Of a stretch of 64,000 nucleotides of DNA, positions 34,030 through 47,190 are shown piece after piece (the first letter of the stretch is position 1; each line of letters begins with the position of its first letter). This stretch comes from Gordius sp. MW1 (lineage: Eukaryota; Nematomorpha; Gordioida; Gordea; Gordiidae): NCBI GenBank assembly GCA_964036665.1, contig OZ038528.1:22989245-23053244 (forward strand). Reading direction: 5' to 3'. Under the pieces are notes generated by a model. It worked only from the letters and a program-made list of their open reading frames with translations. It searched no databases and was not told the DNA's origin. A program made the translations under genes and the position numbers.

Positions 34030-34273
34030 TGTTGTATACTGCAACTGCATACTCCACCATGCGCGTTTATTCAAATTAGGACTGCAACTGCATACTCCAC
34101 CATGCGCGTTATTTCAGATTAGGTTATTCAAATTACATTCATTATCACACAATCACCCTACCATCACGCGATCACCTTATCATCACGCGATCACCCTACC
34201 ATCACGCGTTCTTACCCTTTATATACAAAAATCGCTAATAGTTAAAGAGTCCACCAAATATCGAGACGCAACA
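34030..34273 (+). repeat. 5' LTR of the gypsy element
   Basis: Starts TGTTGTATACT and ends GACGCAACA (TG...CA). It has two internal tandem motifs: an ACTGCAACTGCATACTCCAC unit twice, and a CATCACGCGATCACC-type 20-bp unit three times. A TATA-like TTTATATAC lies at about 34218. Confidence 0.9.
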
Positions 34274-37061
34274 ATGGCGCGGTCTACCCTTACTTTCCAC
34301 CCATATAGTCCTTCGGATAATATTGACCTCTACATATCACAGTTCAACCACTATCATCTAGTAGTCGGCGGCGATAAAAAATCCCTTTTCTTAACGGTAT
34401 GCGGATCGGATAATTATGAACTGCTGATCAATCTTCTTTCCCCTTCGGACCCGTTACAAAAGACCTTCGAAGAAATAGTGTCCACCTTGAAAAGTTTCTT
34501 CGCTCCCTCTCTGAGTGCTATTGTCCATATATATAAATTCCACAAATGCGCACAAGTAGAAGGTGAAAATATTGATTCCTTTGCAGCTAAACTTAAAGGT
34601 ATATCTATCAATTGCAACTTTGGTGCCTCTCTCGAGGAAAACCTTAGGGATCGGTTCGTGGCGGGATTACATAATAACAAGATTGTGGAGCGACTATTGA
34701 TTGTAGATAATCTGACATGGCAAGGGGCATTAGATATTGCGAGATCGATGGAACGGGCAAGATTCCAAAGCCATATGTTGACCCAACAATTGGAACCCGT
34801 TCATACAGTGACTAAACCCACAGCATCAAATATGAAATGTTTTGCCTGTGGGGGGAACCACCTTCGAGTCAACTGTAAATTCCGTTTTGCGACGTGTTAT
34901 AAATGCCATACCCAAGGCCATATCGGAAAGATATGCCGTGTCAAACAGGTTTCCTCATTAGATTATTTCCATTTAAAAGACTCGTTGCGGCCATGCTATG
35001 CTTTGAAGGTAAATGATCGTATGTTAAATTTTGAAATTGACACTGGGTCAGCGGTCACCTTGATTAATGCTCTCAATGGGGCCCACCTTACCACTCAACC
35101 GTGTCGTACCGAATTAAGGGGTTATGATGGTTCGTCTATACCGCTATAGGGATCGGCAAGAGTAATCGTGCAAGAAGAGGACGCAACCCACCAACTCTTG
35201 CTTTACGTCGCTGATGGGAGCGGGCAAAACATTTTGGGAAGGGACTGGTTAAGGATATTTCCACACATATTACGTCAACTAGCTAAGGATTGGGAGCAAA
35301 ACAAACCTTTCCAACGATACGAGATTAATCATACCCACGATGATGTTGTAACCAATAATATTATTAAAAATTATCCGTTGTTGTTTGAAAATAAATTGGG
35401 GGGCGGGGTAGTTGGTTATGAAGCAAAGCTAAAATTAAAAGATGAGTTATGCCCACGTTTTTTCCGCCCTAGACCTATTCCCTATACGTTAAAACCTAAA
35501 ATTGACGAAGAATTAGATAGGTTAGTTAAAGAAGGTATCTTAAAACCCATAAAATATGCTGAACACGCTGCCCCTATTGTAACTGTTATTAAAAATAATG
35601 GGAGCATCCGTATTTGTGGCGATTTCCGTGATTTAAACAAGCACCTTGTAATTGAAAAATATCCTTTACCACGAATTCAAGATTAGGGGCCTTTTCAAAT
35701 ATACTAGACTACCTTTTGGCATAGCTTCGGCCCCAGCTATTTTTCAAAGATTTATGGATTCATTATTTAGAAATAATAAGGGAATAGTAGTCTACCTAGA
35801 TGACATCATTATAGCTGGTAAGACAATAGAGGACCATAATCAAAAATTGGAAAAGGTTTTTAAAGAATTGGAAAAAACAGGCCTAAAACTAAAATTAGGA
35901 AAGTGTAAATTTTTGGAAAAAAAAGTCGAATATTTAGGACATACCATTAGTAAACACGGAATTTTTACTACTGACAAGAATACTAAAGCAATTTTAGCAG
36001 CACCAGCCCCAACTAAAATAAAAGAATTACAATCTTTTTTAGGTATGGCAACATACTACGCGAAATTCATAAAAAATTTCTCTTCGTTAGCACAACCTCT
36101 TTATAAACTGCTAAGGAAAACAGTATCTTGGAAATGGTCAATAGACTGTACAAATGCATTCAATGACATTAAAAAAGCCATTATCAAGGCTCCGATATTA
36201 AAACATTTCGACCCCGAGTTACCGTTAGTACTCTCGACGGATGCGTCATCTAAGGGCCTCGGCGCAGTACTTTCCCACGAAATTAAAGGTTATCAGCACC
36301 CTATTGCTTTTGCGTCCCGCACCCTTAACGCTGCTGAAAGAAATTATAGCCAAATTGAAAAAGAAGCTTTAGCCATCATTTATGCTTTTAATAAATTTAA
36401 GGAATATTTATATGGCCTCCATTTTACATTACTTACAGATCACAAACCTTTAATTACAATATTCAACCCAAATAAAAATGTATCACAAGGCATGTCAGCA
36501 AGACTTCAGAAATGGACTTTGTTAACAACACCTTATCATTATACCATAAAATACAAAATGGGCAAGGAAAATACACAAGCTGATATGTTATCCAGGCTTC
36601 CGATACAATCCAAAGAAAATCTAGAACAAGAAGAAGATGATGATATACACACCATTTATGAAGAACCATTTCAACGTTTTCCCATTACGTCCGCTGACAT
36701 AGAGCGTCATACTCGTACAGATCCTATCCTAGGACAAGTCTATAACTATGTACTCCATGGCGCCGAAGAAAGTTACTCCAGACCTAGTAGTTTACCAGCA
36801 AAGAGAACTAACCATCTTAAAAGGCTGCATATTTTGGGGATACCGAATTATTATTCCTCAAGGATTAAGACAAACCATTTTAAAGCTAATCCACTTAGGA
36901 CACCCAGGCATGAGCCGCTCAAAAATATTGGCTCGTCAACATCTCTGGTATCCGGGTATTGATAAAGATATAGAAGGTTATGTTCAAAACTGTACAGATT
37001 GTCAACAATGGTTTACTGGGACAACAGAATTAGCCACTCAAAAATGGGAAAACCCTGGGAA
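34274..37061 (+). pseudogene. Gypsy gag-pol, left copy, inactivated
   Basis: Gag with two zinc knuckles (CFACGGNHLRVNC and CYKCHTQGHIGKIC, around 34838-34935), protease with FEIDTGSAVTLI (about 35032), RT, RNase H and the start of integrase with its HHCC finger (HLGHPGMSRS ... NCTDCQ, 36893-37004). Breaks: an in-frame TAG at 35147-35149 in the protease; a deletion of roughly 40 codons at about 35685 that joins PLPRIQD to GLFKYTRLPFG out of frame and removes RT motif A with its catalytic Asp; small deletions near 36760 and 36800 that shift frame. RT motif C (VVYLDDIIIAG) and RNase H (STDASSKGLG, LTDHKPL) remain. The copy ends within integrase at the nested array. Confidence 0.9.
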
Positions 37062-37071
37062 ATATTATTAT

Positions 37072-37419
37072 CTGAGTATGGCAGTTAAGCTGCCATACTC
37101 AGACCTGTGGGTTCAGGTAGGGATATCCCTACTGTCCCCCACAGCGTTTATTTATTTTTCTAACTAAATAAACAATTACATATGAGCGTATAAAATATAA
37201 ATGAACAATTATGCGAAGTAGAATAGGTGAATAGGTAAAATAGCGAATATGTTGTTAAGTAAGTTGTAAAACAGGTAAATTCGACGAAAAATTTAGGATA
37301 ATGAGTGGAATATTATGGGGACTTGGTATGTAAGGGACGAGCGTATAAGCGAAATTCAAAAAGGCGACCCCTCAGGGGAGCGGGTTCCTTATATACGCGC
37401 AAGAGCGAGCGCGCGCTAT
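37072..37419 (-). repeat. 3' terminal repeat (A+B) of array element 1
   Basis: 348 bp. On minus, part A starts GCGCGCTCGCTC and contains a TATA box (GCGTATATAAGG) and CCCCTGAGGGG. Part A up to CCTAAATTTT is shared with the 5' leader repeat. Part B follows with two AATAAA signals before a G-rich run, a stem closed by CTGTGGG/CCCACAG around the palindrome GTAGGGATATCCCTAC, and a terminal perfect 13-bp hairpin (CTGAGTATGGCAG, loop of 5). Further copies: 40207-40554, 43240-43590, 43598-43948. Confidence 0.85.
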
Positions 37420-37422
37420 GGG

Positions 37423-39522
37423 TTATTTGTTCCGTTCTGTCCCAATTCCACTATCCGGGTTTTCGTCGGTAATTTCCGGGTCCCCTGCCCACGTTGTCCA
37501 GTCGAATAGATCTTCGTCGGAGAAGGATTCGGGTAAGTCGACCCCCGGAGGCGGTTCTTGCGTGCCAATTGATGGGACCGTGTAGCGCTCCGGAGGGATC
37601 CAGGTACGGCTGGCGTAGTCAGCTGGATTTTCAGTGGTAGGTGTCCATTGTACGTTGTAGCGGATGGCTATGAGGGATTTTATGCCATATTCTCTAACGA
37701 AGCAGGAGATCAGATGTTCGATCCTTGGTGAATTTGATCCTCCTTTGAGGAGGACGTAGTAGGCTGTTGTGGAGTCGGTTCGTATTTGCGGGAACGGTTC
37801 ACCTTCGAATCTTGCAACTAGGTAGGCATAGATGGCGGCTAAGGTTTCGGCAAGCGTGATGTGGCCATCTTCTGGATAAATGAAGTTGAGTGCCGCTGCT
37901 GCGTCTACAAACGAGATTGAGAATTCCCTTGTCGGTGTATAGATTCCTATGTGGCTGTCGGATGCATCTGCGTAGATTGTGATGGATGGTGGCACGTATA
38001 GCGAGATCCTGGAGCGCAGGGATTGCACTAGAGTGTAGTTTGTGACATGCGCTGTCTAGGTTGAACGTGCGGTTGTCGTCCGTGAGGAAGGCGTAAAACG
38101 GGGCTAACAGTTTGGACATTCCCGTTAAGTTGTATAGGAAGTAGTTGAGGACCCCGAGGGCTTCCAGCATGACATTCTTAGGGGGGAGTAGGTTGTTAGT
38201 TGCTACTAGGAAGAGGATATCGGTGGCGTACTCTAGGCGATTTATGATGTCCGGGGAGCATGATATTGAGTGCGAGCCGAAAGAGATTCGTAGGCCTAGG
38301 TAGTCGATATCGCATTCTGGGATAATGGAGGATTTCCTAGCGTTAATAGTTAACCCCCATTGATGGGCCATGTCGTAGAGGGATTCCAGATCATCTTGGA
38401 CGTCGGATTCCGACTCCCCGTATATTAGGACGTCGTCCAGGTATACGTTGTATTTACATCTTGTAACCGATTTCTTGGTAAGGTCGGCGATGATGTTTTG
38501 CAAGACATACGGGGAGAAAGAAGCTCCCATGGGTAAGACTTTATATCTGTACTTGCTACCTTTGTATGTATATGCCAGGTATTTTCGGACGCTGACATTG
38601 ACGGGGATGGCAAAGAACGCGGCTTTGAAGTCCACTTTTGCCGCATAATGTGCTTTTGACAGCTGGCGTGACGTGAGTGGAATCGAGCATAATTTCAGTG
38701 GATAATGAATAAAGTTCTTGGAGACTGCTGACAGGTTAGTTATCACTCTGGGGTCTCCATTTGGTTTCGATATAAAGAAAGTCGCGGATTTGATGATTTC
38801 TCCGTCTGTTCTTTCCACGACTTGGGCTTCAACCATTGCCTCAAAGTATTCCTGCTTGCCTTTCGATATTGCCTTTCGTCTGCCAGGTCGCTGAAAACCG
38901 TTGGTTCGGATCTTCTCCATGTCGAATTTTGGCATAAAGCCGCAGCGGGCTACCTTGCGCGTGAAAGGGTTTTGGAGAGGATGGTATCGTAGCTTGGTCG
39001 TTACGATATCCAGTGGACCTGTTGGCGCCGATGAAGTTGGCTCCTTGTTCCACTGGAATAGAGATTTGTGGAGGCTAAATTTGGGGAGCATCTCTGACCC
39101 CATATCCCGGCCGAAGGCGGCCTCCACTTGCGCTATGCGCGACGAATAGTTAGCGGATGGGACAAATGTAGTTGCGTAGGCTGGAGTTGGTATTCGGATG
39201 GCCCCCGTTGTCCCCGAGGGGAGGCCTTCGGGCGAGAAAATCCACCGGCGCGTCTCCCTGATTTGAAAAATCAAGCGGGCTAACCATGTGGGAGACGTGG
39301 ATTCATCGCTGCCCGAGGAGAGCGGTACGCCTAGGGCCCGACTCTCCATGCTCCGACCAGCCGCTTAATGCGCCGTCTTACCCCTGGTAGAGGCCGGCGT
39401 CTTTTTGAAGTTGCGGCGCGTTGGGCCGCCTCTGCCTCTACCAGTGCCATGAAATAACTGTCGCTTGTTGGGAACCACTTCGAGGTTAGGAATATTCCAA
39501 TCCTCAGCGAATGATTTATCAT
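37423..39522 (-). pseudogene. Array element 1 pol (RT-RNase H), two frameshifts
   Basis: Near-identical to the intact pol of element 2, but broken by a 1-nt deletion near 39333 (ACGCCTAGGG against ACGCCCGAGGG in element 2) and a 2-nt deletion near 38028 (GCACTAGAGTG against GCACTATGGAGTG). The three frames 39522-39331, 39349-37799 and 38028-37423 together cover the protein. RT motifs KVDFKAAFFAIPV, LPMGASFSPY and YNVYLDDVLIYG and RNase H blocks are all present. Confidence 0.9.
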
Positions 39523-40021
39523 TTTTGATAGCTGTGGCCCAATTAAAATGGATGGCCGTTGCTAGGGTCGTCATCCTTGCTATGGTTTCTTTGATGAGCG
39601 TAGGGTGCGATTCGATGTCTAGGGAGTCGGTGACCAGGCAGCAATATTGGGCTTCCTTGCGGTCTCTCCCTGAAACTTTGGTGGGGAATGTAGAGATTAA
39701 TTCCTTTAGTTTTTTAGCTTTTTCGTACACGTCTTCAATTAGCTCCTGTTGTGTAGGCTCGGCGGGTGCCGGCTGAATGATGTTAATGGCTGGGGTTTCA
39801 GAATGGCCCGATGAATTTGCTTGCATCGTGTCTATGAGACGATCGATATTTGCTTGCGATGTACTGACCTCATCCCTTATCAGAGCGTTTTGCTCCTGTA
39901 GCATTCGTACTAATTCAGCTACTGTGTCCGTTGCCATTTGAGATCCGGATTGGGTATTTCCTCGGACAGGTGTGGTTGGTGCTACCGGCGTTTGGTCGGT
40001 CCCTTTTCCTTTTTTACTCAT
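39365..40021 (-). CDS. Array element 1 gag-like protein
   Basis: 218 aa. A hydrophilic N-terminus (KKGKGTDQTP), a predicted helical/coiled segment (VAELVRMLQEQNALIRDEVS), a Pro-rich hinge (IIQPAPAEPTQQE), a globular region with KAKKLKELISTFPTKVSGRD, and a basic Gly/Arg tail (HGTGRGRGGPTRRNFKK) suited to nucleic-acid binding. There is no CCHC zinc knuckle. The 3' part overlaps pol in another frame. It differs from the element 2 gag by a short indel (NSS against SS) and few substitutions. No homologous family is recognised by eye; the role as capsid/nucleocapsid is inferred from position and the basic tail. Confidence 0.7.
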   Translation of the reverse strand: MSKKGKGTDQTPVAPTTPVRGNTQSGSQMATDTVAELVRMLQEQNALIRDEVSTSQANIDRLIDTMQANSSGHSETPAINIIQPAPAEPTQQELIEDVYEKAKKLKELISTFPTKVSGRDRKEAQYCCLVTDSLDIESHPTLIKETIARMTTLATAIHFNWATAIKNDKSFAEDWNIPNLEVVPNKRQLFHGTGRGRGGPTRRNFKKTPASTRGKTAH

Positions 40022-40071
40022 AAATATTAATATTTGCTTACACGCGAGGGATTTCCAATAATAGTTCCTTG

Positions 40072-40198
40072 AAAATTTAGGATAATGAGTGGAATATTAT
40101 GGGGACTTGGTATGTAAGGGACGAGCGTATAAGCGAAATTCAAAAAGGCGACCCCTCAGGGGAGCGGGTTCCTTATATACGCGCAAGAGCGAGCGCGC
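40072..40198 (-). promoter_or_regulatory. 5' leader repeat (A) of array element 1 with TATA box
   Basis: About 127 bp, identical to the first part of the 3' terminal repeat and including GCGTATATAAGG at 40184-40173 on minus. It then diverges into the gag leader (AAGGAACTATTATTGGAAAT...). Transcription would begin about 30 nt downstream of the TATA box, so a full-length RNA from here would be terminally redundant with the 3' repeat. The promoter role is inferred from the motif. Confidence 0.55.
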
Positions 40199-40557
40199 AT
40201 TATTATCTGAGTATGGCAGTTAAGCTGCCATACTCAGACCTGTGGGTTCAGGTAGGGATATCCCTACTGTCCCCCACAGCGTTTATTTATTTTTCTAACT
40301 AAATAAACAATTACATATGAGCGTATAAAATATAAATGAACAATTATGCGAAGTAGAATAGGTGAATAGGTAAAATAGCGAATATGTTGTTAAGTAAGTT
40401 GTAAAACAGGTAAATTCGACGAAAAATTTAGGATAATGAGTGGAATATTATGGGGACTTGGTATGTAAGGGACGAGCGTATAAGCGAAATTCAAAAAGGC
40501 GACCCCTCAGGGGAGCGGGTTCCTTATATACGCGCAAGAGCGAGCGCGCGCTATGGG

Positions 40558-42660
40558 TTATTTGTTCCGTTCTGTCCCAATTCCACTATCCGGGTTTTCG
40601 TCGGTAATTTCCGGGTCCCCTGCCCACGTTGTCCAGTCGAAGAGATCTTCGTCGGAGAAGGATTCGGGTAAGTCGACCCCCGGAGGCGGTTCTTGCGTGC
40701 CAATTGATGGGACCGTGTAGCGCTCCGGAGGGATCCAGGTACGGCTGGCGTAGTCAGCTGGATTTTCAGTGGTAGGTGTCCATTGTACGTTGTAGCGGAT
40801 GGCTATGAGGGATTGTATGCCATATTCTCTAACGAAGCAGGAGATCAGATGTTCGATCCTTGGTGAATTTGATCCTCCTTTGAGGAGGACGTAGTAGGCT
40901 GTTGTGGAGTCGGTTCGTATTTGCGGGAACGGTTCACCTTTGAATCTTGCAACTAGGTAGGCATAGATGGCGGCTAAGGTTTCGGCAAGCGTGATGTGGC
41001 CATCTTCTGGATAAATGAAGTTGAGTGCCGCTGCTGCGTCTACAAACGAGATTGAGAATTCCCTTGTCGGTGTATAGATTCCTATGTGGCTGTCGGATGC
41101 ATCTGCGTAGATTGTGATGGATGGTGGCACGTATAGCGAGATCCTGGAGCGCAGGGATTGCACTATGGAGTGTAGTTTGTGACATGCGCTGTCTAGGTTG
41201 AACGTGCGGTTGTCGTCCGTGAGGAAGGCGTAAAACGGGGCTAACAGTTTGGACATTCCCGTTAAGTTGTATAGGAAGTAGTTGAGGACCCCGAGGGCTT
41301 CCAGCATGACATTCTTAGGGGGGAGTAGGTTGTTAGTTGCTACTAGGAAGAGGATATCGGTGGCGTACTCTAGGCGATTTATGATGTCCGGGGAGCATGA
41401 TATTGAGTGCGAGCCGAAAGAGATTCGTAGGCCTAGGTAGTCGATATCGTATTCTGGGATAATGGAGGATTTCCTAGCGTTAATAGTTAACCCCCATTGA
41501 TGGGCCATGTCGTAGAGGGATTCCAGATCATCTTGGTCGTCGGATTCCGACTCCCCGTATATTAGGACGTCGTCCAGGTATACGTTGTATTTACATCTTG
41601 TAACCGATTTCTTGGTAAGGTCGGCGATGATGTTTTGCAAGACATACGGGGAGAAAGTAGCTCCCATGGGTAAGACTTTATATCTGTACTTGCTACCTTT
41701 GTATGTATATGCCAGGTATTTTCGGACGCTGACATTGACGGGGATGGCAAAGAACGCGGCTTTGAAGTCCACTTTTGCCGCATAATGTGCTTTTGACAGC
41801 TGGCGTGACGTGAGTGGAATCGAGCATAATTTCAGTGGATAATGAATAAAGTTCTTGGAGACTGCTGACAGGTTAGTTATCACTCTGGGGTCTCCATTTG
41901 GTTTCGATATAAAGAAAGTCGCGGATTTGATGATTTCTCCGTCTGTTCTTTCCACGACTTGGGCTTCAACCATTGCGTCAAAGTATTCCTGCTTGCCTTT
42001 CGATATTGCCTTTCGTCTGCCAGGTCGCTGAAAACCGTTGGTTCGGATCTTCTCCATGTCGAATTTTGGCATAAAGCCGCAGCGGGCTACCTTGCGCGTG
42101 AAAGGGTTTTGGAGAGGATGGTATCGTAGCTTGGTTGTTACGATATCCAGTGGACCTGTTGGCGCCGATGAAGTTGGCTCCTTGTTCCACTGGAATAGAG
42201 ATTTGTGGAGGCTAAATATGGGGAGCATCTCTGACCCCATATCCCGGCCGAAGGCGGCCTCCACTTGCGCTATGCGCGACGAATAGTTAGCGGATGGGAC
42301 AAATGTAGTTGCGTAGGCTGGAATTGGTATTCGGATGGCCCCCGTTGTCCCCGAGGGGAGGCCTTCGGGCGAGAAAATCCACCGGCGCGTCTCCCTGATT
42401 TGAAAAATCAAGCGGGCTAACCATGTGGGAGACGTGGATTCATCGCTGCCCGAGGAGAGCGGTACGCCCGAGGGCCCGACTCTCCATGCTCCGACCAGCC
42501 GCTTAATGCGCCGTCTTACCCCTGGTAGAGGCCGGCGTCTTTTTGAAATTGCGGCGCGTTGGGCCGCCTCTGCCTCTACCAGTGCCATGAAATAACTGTC
42601 GCCTGTTAGGAACCACTTCGAGGTTAGGAATATTCCAATCCTCAGCGAATGATTTATCAT
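40558..42660 (-). CDS. Array element 2 pol: reverse transcriptase-RNase H, intact
   Basis: 700 codons without interruption. Residues about 1-200 have no recognised domain (Arg-rich SKRRRPLPGVRRRIKR near 45). RT: FISKPNGDPRVITNLSAV (fingers), KVDFKAAFFAIPV (motif A), LPMGATFSPYVLQ (motif B), NVYLDDVLIYGE (motif C, YLDD), WGLTINARKSSI, IDYLGLRISFG. RNase H: IYADASDSHIG, LAETLAAIYAYL, IRTDSTTAYYVLLKGG, ENPADYASR, giving the D-E-D-D set. The RNase H style resembles DIRS elements and pararetroviruses more than gypsy. No protease, integrase, tyrosine recombinase, GIY-YIG or APE motif is seen. The frame is +1 relative to gag with about 157 nt overlap. The first ATG at 42660 may not be the real start; one at 42588 (MALVEAEAA) also lies in the overlap. 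Confidence 0.88.
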   Translation of the reverse strand: MINHSLRIGIFLTSKWFLTGDSYFMALVEAEAAQRAAISKRRRPLPGVRRRIKRLVGAWRVGPSGVPLSSGSDESTSPTWLARLIFQIRETRRWIFSPEGLPSGTTGAIRIPIPAYATTFVPSANYSSRIAQVEAAFGRDMGSEMLPIFSLHKSLFQWNKEPTSSAPTGPLDIVTTKLRYHPLQNPFTRKVARCGFMPKFDMEKIRTNGFQRPGRRKAISKGKQEYFDAMVEAQVVERTDGEIIKSATFFISKPNGDPRVITNLSAVSKNFIHYPLKLCSIPLTSRQLSKAHYAAKVDFKAAFFAIPVNVSVRKYLAYTYKGSKYRYKVLPMGATFSPYVLQNIIADLTKKSVTRCKYNVYLDDVLIYGESESDDQDDLESLYDMAHQWGLTINARKSSIIPEYDIDYLGLRISFGSHSISCSPDIINRLEYATDILFLVATNNLLPPKNVMLEALGVLNYFLYNLTGMSKLLAPFYAFLTDDNRTFNLDSACHKLHSIVQSLRSRISLYVPPSITIYADASDSHIGIYTPTREFSISFVDAAAALNFIYPEDGHITLAETLAAIYAYLVARFKGEPFPQIRTDSTTAYYVLLKGGSNSPRIEHLISCFVREYGIQSLIAIRYNVQWTPTTENPADYASRTWIPPERYTVPSIGTQEPPPGVDLPESFSDEDLFDWTTWAGDPEITDENPDSGIGTERNK

Positions 42661-43156
42661 TTTTGATAGCTGTGGCCCAATTAAAATGGATGGCCGTTGC
42701 TAGGGTCGTCATCCTTGCTATGGTTTCTTTGATGAGCGTAGGGTGCGATTCGATGTCTAGGGAGTCGGTGACCAGGCAGCAATATTGGGCTTCCTTGCGG
42801 TCTCTCCCTGAAACTTTCGTGGGGAATGTAGAGATTAATTCCTTTAGTTTTTTAGCTTTTTCGTACACGTCTTCAATTAGCTCCTGTTGTGTAGGCTCGG
42901 CGGGTGCCGGCTGAATGATGTTAATGGCTGGGGTTTCAGAATGGCCCGATGATGCTTGCATTGTGTCTATGAGACGATCGATATTTGCTTGCGATGTACT
43001 GACCTCATCCCTTATCAGAGCGTTTTGCTCCTGTAGCATTCGTACTAATTCAGCTACTGTGTCCGTTGCCATTTGAGATCCGGATTGGGTATTTCCTCGG
43101 ACAGGTGTGGTTGGTGCTACCGGCGTTTGGTCGGTCCCTTTTCCTTTTTTACTCAT
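42503..43156 (-). CDS. Array element 2 gag-like protein, intact
   Basis: 217 aa, same architecture as the copy at 39365-40021: helical N-terminal segment, Pro-rich hinge, globular domain, RG-rich basic tail, no zinc knuckle. The ATG at 43156 follows a short A-rich leader (AAATATTAATATTT). The stop at 42503 lies inside pol, which is read in the +1 frame, so pol needs frameshifting, internal initiation or termination-reinitiation. This element's leader repeat is truncated to 34 bp (43206-43239), so it lacks its own TATA box and would depend on the adjacent copy at 43240-43590. Confidence 0.75.
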   Translation of the reverse strand: MSKKGKGTDQTPVAPTTPVRGNTQSGSQMATDTVAELVRMLQEQNALIRDEVSTSQANIDRLIDTMQASSGHSETPAINIIQPAPAEPTQQELIEDVYEKAKKLKELISTFPTKVSGRDRKEAQYCCLVTDSLDIESHPTLIKETIARMTTLATAIHFNWATAIKNDKSFAEDWNIPNLEVVPNRRQLFHGTGRGRGGPTRRNFKKTPASTRGKTAH

Positions 43157-43239
43157 AAATATTAATATTTGCTTACACGCGAGGGATTTCCAATAATAGT
43201 TCCTTAAAAATTTAGGATAATGAGTGGAATATTATGGGG

Positions 43240-43948
43240 CTGAGTATGGCAGTTAAGCTGCCATACTCAGACCTGTGGGTTCAGGTAGGGATATCCCTAC
43301 TGTCCCCCACAGCGTTTATTTATTTTTCTAACTAAATAAACAATTACATATGAGCGTATAAAATATAAATGAACAATTATGCGAAGTAGAATAGGTGAAT
43401 AGGTAAAATAGCGAATATGTTGTTAAGTAAGTTGTTAAACAGGTAAATTCGACGAAAAATTTAGGATAATGAGTGGAATATTATGGGGACTTGGTATGTA
43501 AGAGACGAGCGTATAAGCAAAATTCAAAAAGGCGACCCCTCAGGGGAGCGGGTTCCTTATATACGCGCAAGAGCGAGCGCGCGCTATGGGTTATTATCTG
43601 AGTATGGCAGTTAAGCTGCCATACTCAGACCTGTGGGTTCAGGTAGGGATATCCCTACTGTCCCCCACAGCGTTTATTTATTTTTCTAACTAAATAAACA
43701 ATTACATATGAGCGTATAAAATATAAATGAACAATTATGCGAAGTAGAATAGGTGAATAGGTAAAATAGCGAATATGTTGTTAAGTAAGTTGTAAAACAG
43801 GTAAATTCGACGAAAAATTTAGGATAATGAGTGGAATATTATGGGGACTTGGTATGTAAGGGACGAGCGTATAAGCGAAATTCAAAAAGGCGACCCCTCA
43901 GGGGAGCGGGTTCCTTATATACGCGCAAGAGCGAGCGCGCGCTATGGG
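43240..43948 (-). repeat. Two tandem 3'-end-only copies of the array element
   Basis: Two complete A+B terminal repeats (43240-43590, 43598-43948) joined by TTATTAT. Each begins (minus) with CCCATAGCGCGC, i.e. a few bases upstream of A in the pol 3' end, so they look like strongly 5'-truncated copies and not solo LTRs. The right one abuts the gypsy RNase H sequence at 43949 with no duplication visible. Confidence 0.75.
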
Positions 43949-45927
43949 CGAAATTCATAAAAAATTTCTCTTCGTTAGCACAACCTCTTTATAAACTGCT
44001 AAGGAAAACAGTATCTTGGAAATGGTCCATAGACTGTACAAATGCATTCAATGACATTAAAAAAGCCATTATCAAGGCTCCGATATTAAAACATTTCGAC
44101 CCCGAGTTACCGTTAGTACTCTCGACGGATGCGTCATCTAAGGGCCTCGGCGCAGTACTTTCCCACGAAATTAAAGGTTATCAGCACCCTATTGCTTTTG
44201 CGTCCCGCACCCTTAACGCTGCTGAAAGAAATTATAGCCAAATTGAAAAAGAAGCTTTAGCCATCATTTATGCTTTTAATAAATTTAAGGAATATTTATA
44301 TGGCCTCCATTTTACATTACTTACAGATCACAGACCTTTAATTTCAATATTCAACCCAAATAAAAATGTATCACAAGGCATGTCAGCAAGACTTCAGAAA
44401 TGGACTTTGTTAACAACACCTTATCATTATACCATAAAATACAAAATGGGCAAGGAAAATACACAAGCTGATATGTTATCCAGGCTTCCGATACAATCCA
44501 AAGAAAATCTAGAACAAGAAGAAGATGATGATATACACACCATTTATGAAGAACCATTTCAACGTTTTCCCATTACGTCCGCTGACATAGAGCGTCATAC
44601 TCGTACAGATCCTATCCTAGGACAAGTCTATAACTATGTACTCCATGGCTGGCCGAAGAAAGTTACTCCAGACCTAGTAGTTTACCAACAACGGCAAAGA
44701 GAACTCACCACCTTAAAAGGCTGCATATTTTGGGGATACCGAATTATTATTCCTCAAGGATTAAGACAAACCATTTTGAAACTAATCCACTTAGGACACC
44801 CAGGCATGAGCCGCTCAATAATATTGGCTCGTCAACATCTCTGGTATCCGGGTATTGATAAAGATATAGAAGGTTATGTTCAAAACTGTACAGATTGTCA
44901 ACAATGGTTTACTGGGACAACAGAATTAGCCACTCAAAAATGGAAAAACCCTGGGAAACCATGGTCTAGGTTACATGCCGATTTTTGTGGACCTCTTAAT
45001 GGGTATTATTATCTAATTGTAATTGACGCCTACAGTAAATGGCCTGAGGTAATTCCCATGACCACGATCACTACTTCAAGCACTATAAACGCTCTCGAAG
45101 CTATTTTCTCAAGGTTCGGAGTACCAAACACCTTGGCTACAGACAATGGACCTCAGTTTACAAGCGCCGAGTTTAAAATATACTGCAAAACTAATAATAT
45201 TCGTAATGCATATTCCAGCCCGTATCATCCTCGATCCAACGGAGAAGCCGAACGTTTTGTACGAACATTCAAGGAGTTTTTGAACAAAACTAGAAATTTT
45301 AAAAACGATAAATTGTATAACTTTCTGTTTTCTTATAGGAACACCATTCACCCAACAACTGGATTAACTCCAGCCAATCTATTAATCAAAATTCAACCAA
45401 TCGGTCCATTAAACTTACTCAAACCACATGTAACTGGTCTTGACAAAGACGAGTTGGCACCTATCAAACGAAAATTTGTAATTGGAGATAGAGTATGGGT
45501 TAGAACTTTCACAACTAATGATCAATTATGGGTAACGGGATAAATAGTAAAAATCTTAGGCCCAGTATCATACATGATAGAAATGGATAATGGGGCATTA
45601 TGGAAGAGACATGGTGATCATCTTAGAAAATCTTTAGATAACGCGGACACGCTAAACAATGAAGATCAATGGGCTGACATTTCGCACGCACTACCGGATG
45701 CTCTGCCACAAAATGTTCCCAGTGATTTACTTGACGCCACCACTCCGCAACAGCCTAATCTACCACATGATGAAGCTAGCGATAAAATGCTTGTTTCCAT
45801 TCCACCCCCGCTCTCACCTCTACCCCCTCGTACGGACTCCCCTTATTCACCTATACCCTCACCCGAAATAACGGTCCGGCGATCTACACGAATCCGAAAA
45901 CCTATAGAAAGATATGGAATAACTTAA
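43949..45927 (+). pseudogene. Gypsy pol, right copy: RNase H, integrase, C-terminal tail
   Basis: From KFIKNFSSLAQP (end of RT) through RNase H (STDASSKGLG, YSQIEKEALAI, LLTDHRPL), the integrase HHCC finger (HLGHPGMSRS ... CTDCQ), the integrase core with the D-D-E residues in ADFCGPLNGYYYLIVIDAY, ATDNGPQFTSAEF and PRSNGEAERFVRTFK, and a C-terminal tail ending near RSTRIRKPIERYG. One in-frame TAA (45541-45543) replaces the expected sense codon after WVTG; the frame then continues to 45927. The apparent upstream start at 43831 is chimeric, reading out of the array repeat. Against the left copy it has substitutions and lacks the small deletions at 36760 and 36800. Confidence 0.9.
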
Positions 45928-45939
45928 GGGGGTAGGAGA

Positions 45940-46184
45940 TGTTGTATACTGCAACTGCATACTCCACCATGCGCGTTTATTCAAATTAGGACTGCAACTG
46001 CATACTCCACCATGCCCGTTATTTCAGATTAGGTTATTCAAATTACATTCATTATCACACAATCACCCTACCATCACGCGATCACCTTATCATCACGCGA
46101 TCACCCTACCATCACGCGTTCTTACCCTTTATATACAAAAAATCGCTAATAGTTAAAGAGTCCACCAAATATCGAGACGCAACA
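45940..46184 (+). repeat. 3' LTR of the gypsy element
   Basis: Direct copy of 34030-34273 with a few differences (one extra A in the TATA-distal A-run, one CATGCGC to CATGCCC). It is followed by the target duplication GTTTT and then by LINE copy 2. Confidence 0.9.
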
Positions 46185-47190
46185 GTTTTCAGCAGCCTCT
46201 TCCATCTGAGTCGCGTACATGCCATGCCATTTCCATCTGTTTGACGTCCATATCCTTTTCGACCAGTCGTTTCCAGGTGGCACGTGGTCTGCCCCTTCCT
46301 CTTCTTCCAGGCACGTCCATCTCCAGCGTTTCGCCGTGTGACATCGTCCTCGCTCTTCGTAATACATGGCCGTATCACCGAAGTCGATTTTCCCTTAAGA
46401 AGTCCTTCGTAGCTTGTATACCCATCTTTGTCATCAAGGATTCGTTCGTCATGCGATCCAGCTTGGTGTAGCCTAAGCTCCATCGCACCATTCTCATTTC
46501 CGTGACTTGCAAGAGTTTCTCCTCCGCGGTGGTTACACCCCATGTTTCGCTCCCGTAAAGCAAGACCGGTCGCACGATGGTTTTGTACGCCTTGCTTTTC
46601 AACCAAATTGGTATCTTTTTGTCACACATGACACCGGAGATGCTGCGCCACTTGAGCCATGCTTTTTTTATCCGAGAATTTCGGCGGTACATCCTCTCTC
46701 TTGATGTAATAGCGAGCCAAGATATGTGAACTTATCAACCTCCGTGTACATTGGACCGTCATTTTTGTGCATTTGCTGACTGCCGCCCATCGTTTGCATG
46801 TAAACCGTTTTCTTCTCGCTGATTAACCCGAATTCCGAAAAACGTTCTGACCATTTTTTCGCCTGATGAAAAACCCCTTCACTTGTTTCATCGCATAGGA
46901 CAATATCATCGGCGTATAGCATAGTCCAAGGGGCTGGCTTGTGCAAGTCCTTTGTTATTGTATCCATAATTAGATTAAACAAGAATGGGCTTAATGCTGA
47001 CCCTTGATGTAGTCCAATCATTATTCGGAAGGGTTTCGTTTCTCCTACGGTAGTCCTAACAGATGCAACCGCGCCATTATACATTTCCTTGATAAGTCGA
47101 ACATATCCTTCGGGTATATTTCTGGCCCTAAGGGACCACCATATTACTCGGAACCGTATCGTAGGCCTTTTCTAAATCGATGTTTATTAC
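46185..47190 (-). pseudogene. LINE copy 2: RTE-like RT C-terminal half
   Basis: 5'-truncated LINE. From about 47185 on minus it reads motif A (LEKAYDTVPSNMV), GLHQGSALSPFLFNLIMD, PWTMLYADDIVLCDE (motif C), YLGSLL, then the typical post-RT section [32 protein letters not shown] and KLLQVTEMRMVRWSLGYTK, and WHGMYATQMEEAAEN at the gypsy insertion site. Frameshifts near 46690 and 46400 and a stop near 47115 disrupt it. The remaining 3' end is at 33975-34029, beyond the gypsy element. Confidence 0.85.

Follow-up and report, generated by a model that had tools for sequence, protein, structure and literature searches.

How does a retroelement with no recognisable DNA-cutting enzyme come to be inserted at dozens of sites? 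The question is raised by an array of such elements in a 64,000-nucleotide window of the Gordius sp. MW1 genome (GCA_964036665.1, contig OZ038528.1, positions 22,989,245 to 23,053,244 of the forward strand; window positions below count from its first letter). The repeated element, here called X, encodes a gag-like protein and a pol with reverse transcriptase (RT) and RNase H. Well-described autonomous retroelements carry a target-opening enzyme, and the persistence of a gag/RT-RNase H element, in several families and under purifying selection, without one would offer a natural test of nuclease-free retrotransposition. X is a real, multi-family, integrase-less retroelement with coding constraint, which mixes signs typical of long terminal repeat (LTR) elements with signs resembling target-primed reverse transcription (TPRT). 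The best explanation, to which we give slightly better than an even chance, is a gag and RT-RNase H family that uses strand transfer and whose 3'-end-primed cDNA is joined to pre-existing breaks.

A full X element reads A1 (about 130 nt)-gag-pol-A2-B over 3.1 kb. A2 and B form a repeat, L, of about 358 nt, made of A (132 nt, containing TATATAAGG) and B (about 226 nt), and within the array three such repeats are full and show no difference across about 355 nt. From its 5' side, the array runs through two L-only units, followed by the gag-pol units 3 and 4 (Table 1). The gag-like open reading frame (ORF) of unit 3, predicted to form a coiled coil and a small helical domain and RG-rich at its C-terminus, overlaps pol by 197 nt in a different frame, and unit 4 has a broken pol, split between two frames. 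The A1-gag-pol-A2+B architecture recurs across the genome, where 73 matches to pol were merged into 60 copies, a lower bound on copy number with 63 of 2207 candidates scored. Neighbouring copies less than 12 kb apart form 12 pairs, against 0.23 expected under random placement. Head-to-tail and inverted neighbours, L-only units and 5'-truncated units all occur among them, and they support the proposal, made in a preliminary description of this stretch, of a gag/RT-RNase H lineage that has no integrase and is arranged in a Penelope-like manner. In an alignment of 12 members, pol is 44-90% identical to the window pol; the ratio of nonsynonymous to synonymous divergence (dN/dS) is 0.027-0.061 in the five of six pairs that yielded one, with dS above 1 in two of these, and by this sequence measure pol is under purifying selection. 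X-derived sequence also occurs in other forms. At C4:20348600-20353200 (L089), a satellite-like array has units of about 470 bp, each combining the A-B repeat with about 90 bp of pol, and a spacing of about 478 bp is likewise present at C1:22968315-22977160. At C6:19303871-19349175, four X copies stand in an 8.8-8.9-kb repeat in which they alternate with an LTR element, and X follows an LTR after two bases in the copy that was read.

Pfam recognises RVT_1 in all 12 X pols as the sole confident domain, and an RNase H fold was recognised by VIA-align. No integrase, protease, recombinase or endonuclease domain, GIY-YIG included, is found by Pfam in these pols, the gag ORFs likewise lack a protease and a DDE integrase, and at Pfam level the X proteins show no APE or restriction-like endonuclease of the sort that marks non-LTR elements. 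When nine copies were read through (window units 3 and 4, L002, L006, L007, L041, C5:9013, C8:5379 and C6:10148), no frame longer than 200 codons appeared except those of gag and pol, whole or broken, and hence no ORF for an integrase or a tyrosine recombinase is seen in these longer copies. Over the first 400 bases, the flanks of 18 insertions share nothing on the 5' side and one 23-nt match on the 3' side, so nothing common lies directly outside X.

Both ends of X carry information on how its cDNA is made. A1 and A2 of the same copy differ at 0/122, 1/133, 1/134, 0/127, 0/109 and 0/101 positions in six copies (a seventh, decayed copy has 12 mismatches and 3 gap positions in 130), whereas A-only matches at other loci have 80-97% identity to the window L, which suggests that every round renews A1 and A2 from each other. 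In L041, a dimer with a shared A, the A copies are identical. The repeats are asymmetric, unlike LTRs (132 nt for A1, 358 nt for A2+B), because A1 lacks the B part. In 14 of 14 copies examined, about 12 nt at most separate the 5' end from the A boundary (the copies were chosen since A1 matched to its start, and three come from the window array); for L083, L029, L034 and L038 the yardstick was the A2 of another copy. Just 5' of A2, the motif (A)GAACNGAAC or a close variant is present in 11 copies (window, L002, L006, L007, L008, L037, L041, C5:9013, C1:21639, L069 and C6:10148) and is less clear in C8:5379 and L070. It is coding in the window type, follows the pol stop codon in the L041 type, and may be a polypurine-tract-like primer site. 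Strand transfer is indicated by the shared boundary of many 5' ends and by the near-identity in which A1 and A2 are kept.

The 3' end consists of AATAAACGC or a near variant, hairpin 1 and hairpin 2, followed in many copies by a GATAATAA-like (AATAAT-like) tail. Hairpin 2 has a 5-nt loop, TAA-ending in most copies. Between the window and L041, 11 of its 14 pairs are changed on both sides and none is broken; the corresponding figures are 10 of 14 between the window and L043 and 7 of 14 between L041 and L043, each with one position unpaired. Judged from these substitutions, hairpin 2 covaries between X families. L015, L016 and L035 lack hairpin 2 but retain AATAAT-type sequence, which fits an RT that starts 3' of the hairpin and skips it.

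The junctions are variable. Both flanks were compared at 18 insertions, over 0.7-4.1 kb each; no target duplication was found at 12, one has 26 bp (C3:20279, at the edge of a minisatellite), three have direct duplications of kilobase scale, one an inverted duplication and one a doubtful match, and no constant duplication emerges across the set. Flank matches of at least 6 nt occur in 1/18 true pairs and 17/306 mismatched pairs, and matches of at least 5 nt in 2/18 and 46/306, respectively. The kilobase-scale direct duplications stand beside both X ends in the window (1.0 kb), at C6:19309 (0.77 kb) and at C1:14637 (2.15 kb). Such duplication as a general rule was rejected, as it is direct at 3/18 loci and inverted at 1/18 and most cases can be read otherwise. 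The sole clean local duplication remaining is that at C1:14637 (96.7% identity), the first 1.1 kb of which has two full-length copies among the 40 of 399 candidates scored, with pieces recurring elsewhere. The inverted duplication at C2:4845 is a pair of GIY-YIG elements, and a flank match at C8:5379 (468 bp, 86%), graded doubtful, lies about 925 bp from the A1 start and was left uncounted. The preliminary description is partly confirmed, and holds for the array of a 3.1-kb gag/RT-RNase H element without a recognisable integration domain; the flanking ATTATTAT that it took for a target duplication is the tail of X itself, and TPRT in its simple form, with no more than random 5' truncation, does not suit the common 5' boundary and the near-identical A1 and A2. 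Symmetric LTRs with constant 4-6-bp duplications were not seen in these insertions either, A1 and A2+B being asymmetric and the 18 junctions variable.

Taken together, we hypothesize that X RNA would start from the TATA box in A and end in the tail past the terminal hairpin. Hairpin skipping and the common 3' end suggest that RT would begin in this 3' tail, primed by a DNA 3' end and not by a tRNA at an internal site. On reaching the RNA 5' end, the cDNA would then transfer via the A repeat. Plus-strand synthesis from the purine motif 5' of A2 would set the 5' boundary and restore A1 together with the promoter, and L-only units would be captured strong-stop-like products; the near-identity of A1 and A2, the 5' boundary and the L-only units all point to this step. 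Finally, the absent enzymes and the variable junctions suggest that, with no nuclease of its own, X would have its cDNA joined to pre-existing DNA breaks or ends, leaving absent, short or very large target duplications and nested, end-to-end tandem or inverted neighbours. The 3' hairpin domain, the A repeats and the 5' boundary make this mechanism testable. Going further, X might represent a distinct order that combines LTR-type strand transfer, marked by A repeats, a purine-tract boundary and RNase H, with 3'-end-primed insertion, has long been without an integration enzyme and enters via host breaks or replication ends, at times across rearrangements as large as 2 kb, a proposal that we regard as tentative and would sooner doubt than expect.

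Several points weigh against the joining of 3'-end-primed cDNA to breaks. Three further 5' ends lie deeper in A1 (A+101, A+59 and, in C8:5379, some 45 nt in), truncation in pol affects six of the 18 insertions, and the 14 copies that share the boundary are a selected set. The tail-like sequence in L015 could be flank, tandem copies such as the L041 dimer and the 8.8-8.9-kb repeat on C6 could stem from recombination, and a trans-acting ORF or host factor may be involved. PF00589 has 0 matches in the genome, with control genomes that were all prokaryotic, a set that does not show sensitivity for DIRS-type recombinases. The structure model of pol has a mean pLDDT of 56 overall and is poor in the RT part, and neither a transcript start nor a cDNA intermediate nor an empty site was seen. 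Two of the large duplications belong here as well. At C6:19309, the duplicate is 80 nt of internal region plus the LTR of another LTR element and ends two bases into that element's internal region; its copies differ by 16 mismatches and 14 gap positions in 771, against 0/122 for the A1 and A2 of X, and a deletion of about 4 kb between LTRs may explain it equally well. In the window, the two copies of the 1-kb overlap of the surrounding Ty3/gypsy copy are 9 substitutions and 2 indels apart, and two of the variable sites show both states among 11 other gypsy copies. Since these variants are shared with other gypsy copies while the L repeats are identical, the two sides probably have separate gypsy copies as their source, and by this comparison the X insertion probably joined two gypsy sources, or conversion came afterwards. 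The GTTTT beside the gypsy host is the sole positive example of a constant-type duplication seen. Near and beyond the end of the gypsy copy, broken LINE-like RT frames with a YADDIVL motif lie at 46112-47084 on the minus strand.

Table 1. Features of the X array and of the Ty3/gypsy copy around it, in window positions (TSD, target-site duplication; PPT, polypurine tract)
Feature	Position	Strand	Details
X array, head-to-tail	37064-43946	-	two units with gag-pol and two short ones without coding part; lies inside the Ty3/gypsy copy
Array unit 1	43588..43946	-	L-only (A2+B repeat, no coding part); starts with CCCATAGCG at the A boundary; ends with GATAATAA
TATATAAGG within A of unit 1	43913..43921	-	putative promoter-like TATA box
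Array unit 2	43241..43587	-	L-only; 3' end a few bases short (..CTCAG)
Array unit 3	40199..43240	-	gag-pol; 5' end within A1 (~A+101); 3' L complete
gag-like ORF, unit 3	42503..43156	-	217 aa
pol frame, unit 3	40558..42699	-	open over 713 codons; first ATG 42660; RT (YLDD) and RNase H
Purine-rich motif GAACGGAACAAATAA	40558..40572	-	directly 5' of A2; putatively PPT-like
Array unit 4	37064..40203	-	A1-gag-pol-A2B; A1 begins a few bases inside the A boundary
A1 of unit 4	40072..40203	-	132 nt
A2+B repeat (L) of unit 4	37067..37421	-	A part against A1: 0/127 differences
3'-terminal domain	37064..37152	-	AATAAACGC, then two hairpins, then GATAATAA tail
Ty3/gypsy host copy	34030..46184	+	LTRs 34030-34273 and 45940-46184; outer 5-bp TSD GTTTT
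Left copy of the 1-kb gypsy overlap flanking the array	36060..37062	+	
Right copy of the 1-kb gypsy overlap flanking the array	43948..44958	+	

With the mechanism kept as proposed, it is conceivable, if doubtful, that X is a member of the hepadnavirus-related retroelements (HEART), reported in work by Gong and Han in 2018; this is a question of filing more than a rival. According to later papers, HEART elements are close to Blubervirales, occur in insects and invertebrates, are called enigmatic and have an open mobilisation mechanism (PMC12440569, PMC12691608, PMC11551314). A search of a viral model library with the X pol also points in this direction, with hepadnavirus P in second place (E 6.4e-13) and a badnavirus pol in fourth. 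However, the first match is an unnamed protein, the pol model searched is weak in its RT part, Pfam lists no hepadnavirus polymerase domain in the X pols, no viral entry matches the gag model significantly, and X is likened to HEART by description only. Other searches place different RTs on top, namely the Ty3 RT (4ol8) in a PDB sequence search and, for a structure model that is weak in its RT part, the cauliflower mosaic virus RT in Foldseek and Moloney murine leukaemia virus RT fragments in VIA-align.

The main rival for the joining to breaks is a partner that mobilises X, the best candidates being this genome's GIY-YIG Penelope-like elements, which would use X RNA as the template for their RT and endonuclease, although we consider this unlikely. 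GIY-YIG has 118 matches in the genome, including arrays of 871-938-codon frames at a spacing of about 2.96 kb, and inverted neighbours and tandem arrangement are common to X and these elements. At C8:28243286-28278707 and L094, Penelope-like arrays lie on both strands with open frames of 875-931 codons, and the period in L094 is 2,957 bp. At C2:4842700-4847200 (L083, the C2:4845 locus), a solo L is flanked by two 1.17-kb arms of a GIY-YIG element, inverted to each other and 99.3% alike; it abuts one arm, and in the other the match ends 36 bases away. The element scanned there also has an RT piece, scored below the Pfam cut-off, and is named Penelope-like because it combines this piece with GIY-YIG. 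Such precise co-insertion was found only once, however, the second candidate (C8:23925k) having no GIY-YIG sequence in its 1.1 kb, and the L repeats of X have no long match to the GIY-YIG loci L094 and L095, the longest exact one being 12 nt among the matches listed.

Less likely still, X may descend from the DIRS order (PAT/Ngaro type), having lost the tyrosine recombinase and B1 and inserting as a circle via a foreign recombinase. Its RT-RNase H comes without a protease, and the TDSTTA...GGSNSP stretch of its RNase H presumably resembles that of DIRS. The order A1-ORFs-A2-B2 also matches the A1...B1-A2-B2 given in published descriptions, minus B1 (PMC4157794, PMC6681497). However, PF00589 is without a match in the whole genome, with the prokaryotic controls mentioned above, and 5'-truncated copies do not suit a recombinase. 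That X is an ordinary LTR retrotransposon with an integrase-bearing master elsewhere and arrays made by unequal crossing-over is very improbable, since the LTR-like A repeats, the TATA box, the PPT-like motif, the identical L041 dimer sharing A and the amplified 8.8-8.9-kb units on C6 are set against divergent pols that all lack integrase and protease, asymmetric repeats with an A1 that has no B part, and 18 insertions with no constant TSD.

Compared with known systems, X resembles Ty3/gypsy elements in its nearest solved RT by sequence, its near-identical direct repeats, its TATA box and its purine-rich tract, and differs from them in the lack of a protease, an integrase, symmetric repeats and a constant TSD. 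Penelope-like elements have a telomerase-like RT, usually with GIY-YIG, and no RNase H; X differs in having a gag-like ORF as well as RNase H, in lacking GIY-YIG, and in an RT that matches those of Ty3, caulimoviruses and retroviruses. It resembles them in its tandem and inverted arrangements, its partial units and the repeats between units, and tandem or partial tandem copies with a repeat between units are described for Penelope-like elements (PMC11167929). PAT, Ngaro and VIPER are described as carrying A1 ... B1-A2-B2 repeats and a tyrosine recombinase (PMC4157794, PMC6681497). X is like the DIRS order in its RT-RNase H without a protease or DDE integrase and in its direct repeats A1 ... 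A2-B2, and unlike it in that the nine copies have no tyrosine recombinase ORF and the 12 pols no recombinase domain, only A is repeated with no B1 seen upstream of A2, where the order has split direct repeats A1-B1-A2-B2 or inverted repeats with an ICR, and 5'-truncated and L-only copies occur. X may thus be a stripped DIRS relative, though it fails two defining features (recombinase and B1). HEART elements are described as related to hepadnaviruses and nackednaviruses and as having a mobilisation that is not settled (PMC12440569, PMC12691608, PMC11551314), and by these descriptions X is alike in being an integrated retroelement whose mobilisation is not settled and whose viral matches include hepadnavirus P. 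X may therefore belong to HEART or be a recombinase-less DIRS relative, and hence is not necessarily an undescribed lineage; in either case, it would form a link between retrotransposons and hepadnavirus-like replication.

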